Part shown: one piece after another, positions 136 to 45,444 of the stretch
Layout of the letters: every line of letters begins with the position of its first letter
Position numbering within the stretch: the first letter of the stretch is position 1
DNA from: Candidatus Saccharimonadota bacterium
GTDB lineage: Bacteria; Patescibacteriota; Saccharimonadia; Saccharimonadales; UBA4665
Direction of reading: 5' to 3'
DNA length: 61,053 nt
Assembly: GCA_028286405.1 (NCBI GenBank)
Contig: JAQBRP010000011.1
Location: forward strand, 1-61,053
Notes under the pieces: generated by a model
Databases searched by the model: none
Told to the model about the DNA's origin: nothing
The model's input: only the letters and a program-made list of their open reading frames with translations
Program-made: the position numbers and the translations under genes

Positions 136-200
136 CACTCCAGAAAGTAGTATATGTTTGATACCAAATTAGTATCAAACATATACTACTTTCTGGAGTG
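136..200. repeat. Palindromic repeat copy 1: perfect 29-bp inverted repeat with 7-nt loop
   Basis: cactccagaaagtagtatatgtttgatac-caaatta-gtatcaaacatatactactttctggagtg. Confidence 0.95.
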
Positions 201-272: not shown

Positions 273-2453
273 ATGGCGCGAGTGATTATTGTTTCTAACC
301 GACTGCCCGTCAGCGTCAAAAAACAAGACGGTAAACTAGTGTTTTCACAGAGCACTGGTGGCGTTGCTACTGGCCTGGCTTCTTATGCCAATAATCCGAA
401 CAATCGCTGGATCGGTTGGCCGGGCATTGCCAGCGATGAACTGACGCCAAATGAAAAGCGCGAAATTAGCCGCGAGCTAGCCCGCCACAACTGCTTGCCC
501 GTATTCCTCACTAAAAAGCAGATCGATGACTTTTACAACGGCTACAGCAACAGCATTCTATGGCCCCTATTCCACAACCTCCCGGTGCAGGGCAAGAAGC
601 ACCGCGAACAGTGGTGGCAGGGCTATCGCAAAGTGAACAAACTGTTTAGCGACGCGGTGCTTAAGGTCGCCCAGAATAATAGTCGCATTTGGGTGCACGA
701 TTACCAACTACTGCTGGTACCCGAGCTACTGCGCAGTGCTAATCCGGCTGCTAACATCGGCTTCTTTTCGCATATTCCCTTTCCGCGGCCCAAAGTATTT
801 ACTAAACTGCCCGAGGCCAAAAAACTAATCACCGGCATGCTCGGCGCTCGGCTGGTTGGCTTTCATACCACTGGTTACGTTAATAACTTCCTCGACACCT
901 GCGAGGAGCTCGATATTGGTACCGCCGGTAATGGCCAGATTCTGCTGGGCAACCGTATTATTCGCATAACTGATATGCCCATGGGCATTGATTACCAAAA
1001 GTATGCCGAGTCCGGCAAGTCAGCGGCCGTACGCGCCGCCGTACTGAAGTACAAGCTGCGCTACCGGGGCCAAAAAGTGATTGTGGCCGTCGACCGCCTT
1101 GACCCGTCCAAGGGCCTGGTGGAGCGCCTAGAAGCCTACCGCGAGTTCCTCCAGAACAATCAACGCATGCTGCGTGGCAAAGTAGTGCTCAGCATGGTGG
1201 CCGCCCCGTCGCGTACCGACATAGCTGTCTACAAAAAGCTCAAAATCAGACTCGACGAACTGGTGGCCGAAATCAACGCCGAATTTGGTACCAGGCGCTG
1301 GCAGCCCATCGACTACATGAACGTCTCGCTCCCCTTCGAAGAAGTCAGCGCCCTGCTGCAAATTGCCGACGTGGCCTTTATTGCACCTATGCGCGACGGC
1401 ATGAACCTGGTCGCCAAAGAATATGTAGCCAGCCGCCGTAAAAATGGCGTACTTATTTTAAGTGAAACCGCCGGAGCCGCTCAGGAGCTCAGTAATGCCC
1501 TGCTGGTAAATCCTGCCCACCGGGCCAGTGTTGTGGATGCCCTCGAAAAGTCGCTCACCATGCCAAAACGCGAACTTAAAAAGCGCTTTACCGCCATGCA
1601 AGAACAGCTATCGGCTAACACCGTGCAAAACTGGGCCGGCACCTTCATGAAGACCCTGCAACAGCCGGTACCCGGTACGCAAGTTATCCGTACGCCCAGC
1701 CTAACAACTGCCCGCGCTGCCAAAATTAAAAACAACTACAAAGTAACCAGCAAGCGCCTACTGTTGCTCGACTATGACGGCACCCTAATGCCGCACACCG
1801 AACACTATTCACACGCTGCGCCGCCCAAAAAGCTGCTCCACTTACTGGAATCTCTGTCGAATGACGAAAAAAACGAGGTGGTACTCATTAGCGGCCGCAG
1901 CAAGGGCGATTTGCAGGAGTGGTTTGGCAATGCCAACATTAACTTGATTGCCGAGCACGGCGCACTGATTAAATCGGCTGGTCACAAGACCTGGCACGAA
2001 ACCGTGCAATCCGGCCGCCGCTGGAAAAAGACCGTACTACCAATTTTGCAGACCTATACCGACCTAACGCCAAACGCCAGCATTGAAGAAAAGCAGTACT
2101 CACTGGTGTGGCATTACCGCCAGTCACCGGCCTTTGCCGCCCAGAAGAACTTGCAGATTCTGCACCGGGTACTACGCCCCCTCACCCGCCAGTTTGGCCT
2201 GGAGCTATTTAATGGCAGCAAAATACTAGAAATCAAAGATCCGGGTATTAACAAAGGCAATGCCGTGCGTCGCTGGCTGCGTCGTGAGCACGATTTTGTG
2301 CTGGTCATTGGCGACGACTTCACCGACGAAGATATGTTTGCTGCCGTACCAGCCAGTGCTACCACTATAAAGGTGGGCCGCGGGCGCACGATTGCCAGCT
2401 ACCGGGCCGCCAACTCCGAGGAGATCATAGACCTGCTCACCCAGCTTAAGTAA
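273..2453 (+). CDS. otsA: Bifunctional trehalose-6-phosphate synthase/phosphatase (OtsA-OtsB fusion)
   Basis: GT20 N-terminus (VIIVSNRLPVSV, GGVATGL, WVHDYQLLLVPELL) fused to HAD phosphatase (LLLLDYDGTL, VVLISGR, VIGDDFTDEDMF); start set to internal ATG because the track start lies inside the palindrome. Confidence 0.9.
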   Translation: MARVIIVSNRLPVSVKKQDGKLVFSQSTGGVATGLASYANNPNNRWIGWPGIASDELTPNEKREISRELARHNCLPVFLTKKQIDDFYNGYSNSILWPLFHNLPVQGKKHREQWWQGYRKVNKLFSDAVLKVAQNNSRIWVHDYQLLLVPELLRSANPAANIGFFSHIPFPRPKVFTKLPEAKKLITGMLGARLVGFHTTGYVNNFLDTCEELDIGTAGNGQILLGNRIIRITDMPMGIDYQKYAESGKSAAVRAAVLKYKLRYRGQKVIVAVDRLDPSKGLVERLEAYREFLQNNQRMLRGKVVLSMVAAPSRTDIAVYKKLKIRLDELVAEINAEFGTRRWQPIDYMNVSLPFEEVSALLQIADVAFIAPMRDGMNLVAKEYVASRRKNGVLILSETAGAAQELSNALLVNPAHRASVVDALEKSLTMPKRELKKRFTAMQEQLSANTVQNWAGTFMKTLQQPVPGTQVIRTPSLTTARAAKIKNNYKVTSKRLLLLDYDGTLMPHTEHYSHAAPPKKLLHLLESLSNDEKNEVVLISGRSKGDLQEWFGNANINLIAEHGALIKSAGHKTWHETVQSGRRWKKTVLPILQTYTDLTPNASIEEKQYSLVWHYRQSPAFAAQKNLQILHRVLRPLTRQFGLELFNGSKILEIKDPGINKGNAVRRWLRREHDFVLVIGDDFTDEDMFAAVPASATTIKVGRGRTIASYRAANSEEIIDLLTQLK

Positions 2454-20891: not shown

Positions 20892-21362
20892 TTACTTATT
20901 CTTCTCTTTGTCGAGTTTTTCGAGGTGAAAGAACTTAATAATGGCGTAAATGACGACCATAATAAACAGGAAGTCGACAATGGTGTACACCACGGCACCC
21001 CAGCGGAGCGTGGCGGTATTTGCACCCCAAGTGACCACTGACTGCTTGGCACTCAGGGCGTCACCGTTCAGCACGAGTTTGAATAATTCGTTGACGATGT
21101 TGGCGTTCAGCGAGTCGACAATGACCTTGAGCTGCGTACCAACAACAATACCGACGGCCAGGCCGACAACGGCGTGTTCGCGCAGGAAGCCAATGAAGCC
21201 ACCGACCGCTTTGGGTGTCACTAAATCAACCACAATCTCGGCCTTTTCACGCGGCGACGTTTTGCCACGCTCACTCTCCGGCTGACTAATGCGTACTGCA
21301 CCACCGGTAGTGTTTACCTGCATGGTTTCGCCTTTTTTAAGTTTGCGTCTTCGATTTGGCAT
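20892..21362 (-). CDS. mscL: Large-conductance mechanosensitive channel
   Basis: GFIGFLREHAVVGLAVGIVVGTQLKVIVDSLNANIVN; two TM helices. Confidence 0.85.
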   Translation of the reverse strand: MPNRRRKLKKGETMQVNTTGGAVRISQPESERGKTSPREKAEIVVDLVTPKAVGGFIGFLREHAVVGLAVGIVVGTQLKVIVDSLNANIVNELFKLVLNGDALSAKQSVVTWGANTATLRWGAVVYTIVDFLFIMVVIYAIIKFFHLEKLDKEKNK

Positions 21363-21414: not shown

Positions 21415-21479
21415 CACTCCAAAAATAGGTATACATGGGTTACTAAATTAGTATCAAACGTATACTACTTTCTAGAATG
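21415..21479. repeat. Palindromic repeat copy 2 (degenerate)
   Basis: cactccaaaaataggtatacatgggttact-aaatt-agtatcaaacgtatactactttctagaatg; related to copies at 136 and 45380. Confidence 0.8.
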
Positions 21480-33058: not shown

Positions 33059-33129
33059 CTGGGTTCGATAATACTTGGAGACACACCGTCTCTTGCCCAC
33101 AGCAATCCCCCAAGCATTATCGAACCCAG
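33059..33129. other. Long hairpin (19/20-bp stem) just upstream of the 33148 gene
   Basis: CTGGGTTCGATAATaCTTGG...CCAAGcATTATCGAACCCAG. Confidence 0.8.
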
Positions 33130-42785: not shown

Positions 42786-45359
42786 TTGCGCCTCTGGATA
42801 GTGCTGGCCGTTTTCCTGCTATCACTTACTCGTAGCCTGTCGGCGAGTGGCACCTCGCTAGCTAATGCTCCCGATATTCCGTGGGCCCAACCGAGGGCCA
42901 TGGCCCTCAATAACACCGGTCCAGTAGCCGTGGCTGAAACAGAACATAGTTATGCCTGCACAGCCATGGCCTTTCGCCTAATTGATGACCTCAGTAAACG
43001 CTTGCGCCAAGGCTGTTTTGTGCAATCGGCTATTGGACTCATTGATCCCGACCAAAGTGTCGCCATATTCACCGGCACCGACGAGGGTGAGCTAATCAAA
43101 TTTGGTGGGCAATCGGCAGCCCTGAGCATTTTGCCCTATTCGGCAAGCGTGGGCCGCTTTGGCGGTTTTCCGGGGATGGGCACATATATGTACCTGTATA
43201 CGTATTTTCCGGGAGCGCTCCAAAGTGAAGGTATTCCGCAGTATGGCCGCTATAAGTCAGTGGTTTCGCAACCAAACTTTGTAGTAACAGACGAGGCTGG
43301 GCAGCCGCTGCCGGTAAACTCACAGGCGTTGGGCTACGCGCCACGAGGGCAGTGGATGGTAACCGAGTCGCCGGGCAATGCACTGGTTCGCATTAATCTG
43401 GCCGATTTCTCAATTTTACCGTTTGGTAAGTCGTTTGATACGCCGGGCATGCCCTTTGCTGGGCATACTGCTAGCCTGGCCGTTACCGGCGATGGTCGTT
43501 ACGCAGCAGTGGCCAGTACGGAGTTTTCGAGCTTTAAGGTGTACGATCTCGCTGCCTGCACAACTCCCAAGGCCTGTCCGGCGCACGACTACTGGCAATA
43601 CGTAAAAACCCAGATTGGGAGCAATCTGAGCCGTATTTCGCAGGTTAGCTTCGTCCGTGATGACCTGATTAGCTTTAACGCCACCAATGGCTCACAGACA
43701 AATAGCTATCTGTTGGCTCCGAGTGGTCAAATCACCTCACTACTACCCTATCTGGGACTGGGCGACTCATACGCCTCCGGGCAGGGAGCCTGGAACTACC
43801 TTGCCGGCACCGATACCGCGGTGAACCACTGCCACCAATCAGCTCATTCGTATCCGCTGCGGCTCGACGGCCGTTCTGTCGCCTGCTCAGGGGCACGCAG
43901 CCGCGACATTATTAATCAATCAGCCAACTACAGCGGCCAGGTCAGTGATCATCGTAGCGCCAAATCTCGCGAGGCCGACGGCAGTGAAACCAGTATTTTG
44001 CACGACTTTACACCGGGATACCTGGCACAACAAGCGTTTGTGACTGCCTACCAGCCAGGGGTGATCACGATACAAATCGGCGGTAACGATGTTGGGTTTA
44101 AAGATATGTTGCTACGCTGCGTCAGCCCCGGCGACTGCTATCAGACATACGAGGATCGTCTGGAAGCCGAGCAGACAATTGCCCACAACTACTCAAAATG
44201 GGTCGACCTATTTAGGCAACTGCAGAAAACAGCGCCGGCTGCTCGCCTATACGCCCTTGGCTACCCGCAGATTGTCACAACGGGTGGCAAATGCGGGCTG
44301 AACGTTCATTTAACGCCTGGCGACATCGACTTTGCCCGCCAGGTAACCGCCTACATTAATGGTGTCATTCAAAAAGCTGCGGCTGCAGCCGGCGTGCAGT
44401 ATGTCGATGTTAGCAGCGCGCTAGCCGGCTATGAACTCTGTAGTAGTGCAGCAGGTAACGTAGCGGTTAACGGTGTAACTGCCGGCAATGATACGCTGGG
44501 CGTACTGGGGCAGGAGAGTTTTCATCCAACCGCCTTCGGGCACGAACTGATCGAGCAGGCAATCAGACGGGCTACTCATAATTTTGCAAACACTCCAAAG
44601 CTAGCTAGCAACCCGGGCCAGGCAGTTCCAGCCCCCAGCGGCAGCGACCCACTACTACAAGCACCGCGGTCGGGTCGGCCAGTCAAAACAATCAGCCCAG
44701 CCAGCGGCATGACGAGCAGCGGGGTAAAGGGCGGCTCGGTAACAATTGATCTTGTCGGGGCCGATTACGGGCTACGCCCCAACACGACATACACCGTACA
44801 GATCGGCCAGACGACGACCAGCCCCGCACAAACTGATAGCCAGGGCGATATACAAACCACCGTGCCAATACCTCCGGCCGTCAATCCGGGCATCCAGCCC
44901 GTGGTGGTTTCAGGCCTCAGCCAAGGAGAAGACCCCGTAACCATTACTGATACGACGTACGTCGGGCATAGCCCCACCGATTACGACGGCGATGATGTCC
45001 CCAACCCGCAAGATTCCTGCCCATTAGTCGTGAACTCCGGCAGTGACGATGATCATGACAACCTCGACGATACCTGCGATTCCGAGTTCACGTTGCCGAC
45101 CAGTAAGCATTCGTCTGCAGCCGATGCCGGTGGGGGTCTCCTTAAGTTAAGCGTTCAGCACATAATGAACGCTGCACATTTTGGGCCAACAAAAAATGAT
45201 AACTCGGCTCCTCAAACTGCGGTGCTGAGCGCGGCCACGGCAACACCGCATTACGGGGGCACACGGGGTCAATACTACACTTGGTTATTGTTGCTACTGG
45301 TACTGGTAATCATGCTCTTGGTTGTATGTTGGATGAGAAGGCGAGGGGACCGAGGCTAG
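42786..45359 (+). CDS. Secreted SGNH/GDSL-type hydrolase with TSP3-like repeat and C-terminal membrane anchor
   Basis: LGLGDSYASGQGAW; IGGNDVGF; SFHPTAFGHELI; DYDGDDVPNPQDSCP; terminal TM + RRRGDRG; TTG start in track. Confidence 0.85.
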   Translation: MRLWIVLAVFLLSLTRSLSASGTSLANAPDIPWAQPRAMALNNTGPVAVAETEHSYACTAMAFRLIDDLSKRLRQGCFVQSAIGLIDPDQSVAIFTGTDEGELIKFGGQSAALSILPYSASVGRFGGFPGMGTYMYLYTYFPGALQSEGIPQYGRYKSVVSQPNFVVTDEAGQPLPVNSQALGYAPRGQWMVTESPGNALVRINLADFSILPFGKSFDTPGMPFAGHTASLAVTGDGRYAAVASTEFSSFKVYDLAACTTPKACPAHDYWQYVKTQIGSNLSRISQVSFVRDDLISFNATNGSQTNSYLLAPSGQITSLLPYLGLGDSYASGQGAWNYLAGTDTAVNHCHQSAHSYPLRLDGRSVACSGARSRDIINQSANYSGQVSDHRSAKSREADGSETSILHDFTPGYLAQQAFVTAYQPGVITIQIGGNDVGFKDMLLRCVSPGDCYQTYEDRLEAEQTIAHNYSKWVDLFRQLQKTAPAARLYALGYPQIVTTGGKCGLNVHLTPGDIDFARQVTAYINGVIQKAAAAAGVQYVDVSSALAGYELCSSAAGNVAVNGVTAGNDTLGVLGQESFHPTAFGHELIEQAIRRATHNFANTPKLASNPGQAVPAPSGSDPLLQAPRSGRPVKTISPASGMTSSGVKGGSVTIDLVGADYGLRPNTTYTVQIGQTTTSPAQTDSQGDIQTTVPIPPAVNPGIQPVVVSGLSQGEDPVTITDTTYVGHSPTDYDGDDVPNPQDSCPLVVNSGSDDDHDNLDDTCDSEFTLPTSKHSSAADAGGGLLKLSVQHIMNAAHFGPTKNDNSAPQTAVLSAATATPHYGGTRGQYYTWLLLLLVLVIMLLVVCWMRRRGDRG

Positions 45360-45379: not shown

Positions 45380-45444
45380 CACTCTAAAAACAGGTATACG
45401 AATGATACTAAATAAGTATCATTCGTATACCTGTTTCTGGAGTG
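45380..45444. repeat. Palindromic repeat copy 3 (28/30-bp stem, 5-nt loop)
   Basis: cactctaaaaacaggtatacgaatgatact-aaata-agtatcattcgtatacctgtttctggagtg. Confidence 0.95.

Follow-up and report, generated by a model that had tools for sequence, protein, structure and literature searches.

Close to the beginning of a 61,053-nucleotide stretch of DNA from a Candidatus Saccharimonadota bacterium (contig JAQBRP010000011.1; "the window" below, always at its full length) lies a conspicuous palindrome, which raises the question of what kind of element it is and what, if anything, recognises it. The original prediction had taken it for the founding copy of a dispersed repeat family, possibly REP- or MITE-like or recognised by a recombinase. 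Our genus-level comparison comprised two genomes: the source genome (G000; 636 kb in 20 contigs, 75% complete) and a Saccharibacteria MAG (G001; 90% complete).

A palindrome family in intergenic DNA

The arms at 136–164 and 172–200 are exact reverse complements around the centre CAAATTA, as predicted, and as single-stranded DNA this copy folds with z = −14.7 (0 of 200 shuffles were equally good). The two relatives which had been placed at 21415 and 45380 are also real, intergenic and present as described, and matches to the arm motif were found 6 times within the window against 0.23 expected. The relevant features of the window are as follows.

136..200: copy 1, perfect 29-bp arms around a 7-nt centre, between a reverse-strand gene (start ~101) and otsAB (start 273)
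144..170: left 27-bp palindromic unit of copy 1, AAAGTAGTAT-N7-ATACCAAATT, 3 mismatches to the G001 unit
166..192: right 27-bp palindromic unit of copy 1, AAATTAGTAT-N7-ATACTACTTT, 1 mismatch, overlapping the left unit by 5 bp
273..2453, forward strand: otsAB-like trehalose synthesis gene (Glyco_transf_20, Trehalose_PPase), whose 5' region carries copy 1
20892..21362, reverse strand: mscL, whose start is 53 bp away from copy 2
21415..21479: copy 2, between the argS 3' end and the mscL start, with spacers in which the arms have diverged
21445..21471: right palindromic unit of copy 2, 1 mismatch
42786..45359, forward strand: GDSL-hydrolase gene, with its 3' end 21 bp from copy 3
45380..45444: copy 3, with the CAGGTATAC arm variant, in a convergent gap between the GDSL-hydrolase gene and a tRNA gene

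A model of the 65-bp element trained on the source genome alone (R1) detected 8 copies there (E-values 6e−20 to 5e−14), 3 of them in the window (contig C14) and the other 5 at C1:27433, C7:25138, C9:34367, C17:12530 and, in reverse, C9:25214; no weaker match was seen in the 20 contigs up to E = 5. An unbiased self-blastn of the same contigs recovered this family with exactly these 8 members. All 8 copies are solitary and intergenic, which would be expected by chance with a probability of ~1e−7 in a genome that is 86% coding; 4 lie between divergent genes, 2 between co-directional and 2 between convergent genes, and 6 have at least one gene start downstream. The idea of a dispersed palindromic family thus held up, and our literature searches found no description of one like it; the label "founding copy" is unsupported, as 136–200 is only the most symmetrical member. 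In the window Rfam matched tRNAs only. At 33059–33129, where a 350-aa ORF starts, a separate inverted repeat was seen, with 20-bp arms (95%) and a 31-nt loop.

Core orientation in these copies corresponds neither to GC skew nor to gene strand, and the two copies on C9, 9 kb apart, have opposite orientations; we therefore rejected a reading in terms of replication polarity. With its inverted arms and an asymmetric centre of 7 nt, the element does resemble the core site of a Xer/dif-type or other tyrosine recombinase, and yet the 8 dispersed copies in both orientations do not behave as a single site, the arms flanking the core are variable, and the one tyrosine-recombinase (Xer-like) gene found in the source genome is adjoined by a different palindrome. 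We consider a recombinase site extremely improbable, and this part of the original prediction was abandoned. The different palindrome is a 54-bp perfect palindrome with one relative (C2:317–370 and C4:293–346), the C4 copy lying between an HTH-regulator gene and that recombinase gene.

Half-sites and hairpin

We found that a 27-bp palindromic unit, AAAGTAGTAT-N7-ATACTACTTT, occurs twice in the 65 bp, the two copies overlapping and each half being itself palindromic (AAAGTAGTAT-N7-ATACTAATTT). Alignment of the 16 half-elements gave CACTC-yar-AA-(G)TAGTATA-c-gtttg-a-TACTAA, in which conserved blocks are set apart by a variable 7-bp stretch. Conservation was 237/256 (93%) in the half-site blocks and 78/112 (70%) in the spacers (Fisher P = 6e−8, a value which treats the copies as independent although they are related). 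Pairing between the arms within the spacers was at the level of chance (32 pairs against 31.3 expected; shuffled-partner permutation P = 0.36). Since spacer pairing equals expectation and the blocks are better conserved, it is the DNA blocks, rather than the hairpin, that are conserved. The copy at 21415 illustrates this: its blocks are intact, there is no hairpin in mid-arm, and its fold is unremarkable (z = 0.03).

The block centres fall at 17, 28, 38 and 49 of the 65 bp, in steps of 11, 10 and 11 bp. The element is therefore not primarily a hairpin, which the original prediction had put at its heart, and consists of four half-sites one helical turn apart with free spacers, as is found in operators of ribbon-helix-helix (RHH) proteins; a protein array would read DNA at this spacing.

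These observations bear on whether the hairpin is a transcription terminator or an RNA element. Copy 1 has a perfect 29-bp stem, such short hairpins are common elsewhere, and the unit in G001 ends in A/T runs as bidirectional terminators do. The copies in the source genome, by contrast, have no T-run, 4 of the 8 lie between divergent genes, copy 2 is unfolded, the spacers show no preference for pairing, and the element has no Rfam match. As the copies are not stable hairpins with a T-run downstream of genes, we rejected an intrinsic terminator, in agreement with the original prediction; the wider terminator or RNA reading is very unlikely.

Distribution and probable spread within the genus

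Allowing ≤ 2 mismatches, the unit AAAGTAGTAT-N7-ATACTACTTT was present in G000 and G001 and absent from 292 further genomes of the order, while the reversed control pattern was present in 3. Its specificity is confined to the fixed N7 spacing: AAAGTAGTAT...ATACTACTTT hairpins with a free loop gave > 100 matches across GTDB and were set aside as generic A+T-rich hairpins. R1 ranked G001 first among 98 relatives (best foreign match E = 9e−5). A model of the short form (R3) was trained with three G001 copies, one of which, linked to an RHH gene, had been found by looking there before it entered the training; R3 recovered two further, untrained G001 copies (E = 1e−6 and 6e−5), while in 28 other genomes no match was better than 0.07. 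G001 therefore holds at least 5 copies (C87:25151, C52:581, C76:10926, C76:15538 and C87:8553), all in a single-unit form of ~45 bp, whereas all 8 copies in G000 are double. The arm variants GTAGTATA and C(A/G)GGTAT both occur in both genomes. The exact core pattern had no match in GTDB r220 or IMG/VR, so the double form is seen only in G000, and blastn of the element against phages and plasmids gave chance-level matches only.

No site common to the two congeners is known. G001 has no element in the conserved gaps holA/otsA (the first gene being what we take to be holA), argS/mscL, LT/ksgA and ndh/FAD-oxidase, and the rpe/tkt gap of G000, which is far shorter, has none either. Given the lack of a known shared site and the several empty orthologous gaps, the copies have spread or been lost within each lineage. 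Copies are uniformly double in G000 and uniformly single in G001, which makes it more likely that sites were copied within each genome than that they arose independently.

Such behaviour could be that of a non-autonomous mobile palindrome of MITE or REPIN type, copied by a transposase, with the single units REP-like, the inverted double units REPIN-like and the neighbouring RHH gene a passenger or an accidental neighbour. Prokaryotic MITEs are short and intergenic with terminal inverted repeats (PMC10969869), as is our element, and its positions likewise differ between related genomes. REPs and REPINs, which are associated with RAYT transposases, are dispersed extragenic palindromes in single and inverted double forms (PMC3116915, PMC3733652). 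Our family shares the dispersed extragenic placement, has GTAG inside the unit, and shows 20–40-bp palindromes both singly (G001) and as overlapping doubles (G000), the all-double and all-single genomes being what within-genome copying would give. Unlike REP/REPIN families, it is A+T-rich with conserved half-sites and free spacers, and it has at least 8 copies rather than hundreds (8 in G000, about 5 in G001). RAYT (Y1, PF01797) was found in neither G000 (75% complete) nor G001 (90%), and scored over the cut-off in 5 control genomes. The element is close to REP/REPIN in anatomy and fails on RAYT and on copy number, which counts against the REP-like label. The MITE-like label survives in part: the copies behave as mobile elements would, with no known shared position and empty orthologous gaps, but a classical MITE is not supported, as G000 copies have no target-site duplication > 2 bp (0–2 bp, as at random places) and a non-exhaustive search saw no transposase partner or parent element. 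In addition, substitutions are concentrated in the spacers instead of decaying evenly, and it is unlikely that chance placed an RHH gene beside the element in both species. We regard plain mobility as possible, though clearly less probable than the protein-binding explanation given below. In a relative, G005, two adjacent Y1 transposase genes were seen at C1:642082–643188; no link to our family was found.

The neighbouring RHH gene and the candidate binding protein

One copy in each species lies beside a gene of the same type. In G000 this gene is:

C7:24771–25061: orphan ribbon-helix-helix (RHH, CopG/Arc-like) gene, 96 aa, RHH_1 above the Pfam cut-off

The C7 copy is 77 bp upstream of its start, with an apparent promoter ~60 bp downstream of the element. 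The nearest match in G001 (45% over 42 residues) is an RHH gene with the element GCACTCTAAAAACGGATATCATTTGATACCCGTTTTACAAGGGTGC in its own upstream region (C76:10926–10967), so that a site adjoins the RHH gene itself, as in autoregulation, in both genomes. The two genes are at unrelated loci (LT/ksgA in G000, beside a groEL neighbour in G001), and both gaps are 0–20 bp wide in relatives without the gene. The G000 and G001 proteins have H in the DNA-contacting strand where those of other genomes have N, and they group at 83/77 support, subject to a long-branch warning. Among their nearest NCBIfam models, none of which reached its cut-off, are aCcr1 and VapB.

Elsewhere in the order, RHH genes are of a ParD/CopG-like type and are preceded by different short operators. 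A second low-copy palindrome family in G000, CATACAAA...TTTGTATG, resembles those operators and has 6 copies in mixed contexts (C18:12299–12331, C18:3429–3473, C10:2925–2980, C12:1130–1175, C16:47910–47954 and C1:21711–21761). G014, of another genus in the same family, has 7 copies of an AAATCCC...GATATATGTATATC...GGGATTT palindrome (C1:19846, C1:23642, C2:16832, C2:19229, C2:202181, C2:559767 and C2:782956), 5 of them between convergent 3' ends and one in the pepN/nusA gap, which is also the site of a G000 copy; the sequences there are unrelated, no other position was found to be shared with a relative, and we treated this as a chance coincidence. As G014 has no RHH gene of the G000/G001 type, we rejected this protein as the general agent of such families and claim its link to the element for the G000/G001 genus only.

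Our leading explanation, held with medium confidence, is that the 65-bp element is a double palindromic binding site whose likeliest ligand would be the orphan RHH protein of C7:24771–25061. RHH dimers would dock on half-sites that recur every 10–11 bp along one face of the helix, probably cooperatively over the two overlapping units, and the protein may control its own gene through the adjacent site. At other copies it could act on local promoters or, where a copy lies between 3' ends, have a chromosome-organising role, and sites would have been copied separately to new intergenic places, as single units in G001 and double units in G000.

Several points weaken this RHH-operator reading. Copies flanked by 3' ends (2 of 8 in G000, 1 of 5 in G001) have no promoter to control, which argues against a pure regulon and keeps a structural role or plain mobility open; the lack of a known site common to the congeners is unusual for a regulon; in G000 some 60 bp separate the element from the apparent RHH promoter downstream of it; orthology of the RHH genes rests on 42 aligned residues; and the genus is represented by two genomes, with G000 75% complete, so the true cognate protein could lie in its missing part.

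The element could also be the operator of an unrelated transcription factor, with the RHH gene as one of its targets. The unbiased scan that recovered our family also picked up known operator families, 6 of the 8 copies are upstream of at least one gene start, and in G001 TATAAT-like boxes come after the element at both orn and tkt. The convergent copies and the lack of known common targets between the congeners speak against such an operator, no other candidate regulator is linked to the copies, and we think it unlikely. The recovered families include three NrdR-box-like palindromes (ACACTGTATATAC...) in G014 (C2:24253, C1:7257 and C1:13311) and CIRCE, the operator of HrcA, found in G000 at C6:1759, C6:3527, C6:6005 and C9:36125 before hrcA, dnaK, dnaJ and a clp gene. 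The latter sites amount to an HrcA regulon of the ordinary kind in Saccharibacteria, and they serve as a positive control for the scan. CIRCE has a 9-bp spacer and is found only before heat-shock genes. Our family resembles it as a low-copy palindrome family with GCACTC/GAGTGC-type ends, whereas its CACTC ends are separated by 55 bp and the genes concerned are unrelated.

We see a likeness in mode of working, and not in membership, to SegB of the Sulfolobales, an RHH centromere-binding protein whose imperfect palindromic sites lie both in front of its own operon and at tens of places across the chromosome, the 13-bp motif (TCTAGA-S-TCTAGA) lying mostly inside genes and the protein having a ParA-like partner (PMC12284271). 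Here, by contrast, the sites are 45–65 bp long and intergenic, there is no adjacent SegA-like partner, and RHH binding is predicted.

To our knowledge, almost nothing is known of the regulators and chromosome-binding proteins of Saccharibacteria. A self-spreading module is conceivable, if rather improbable, in which the RHH gene's own binding site has been copied into new intergenic places, bringing the nusA, ksgA, murJ, otsAB and mscL regions under one regulator or one chromosome-organising protein and passing from single to double sites within a genus. As a candidate protein and the complete detectable set of sites can be named in two genomes, regulation and mobility can be directly tested against each other. 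Overlapping half-sites for a protein can give rise to a striking hairpin as a by-product, which calls for caution where REP or MITE elements are called from symmetry only.
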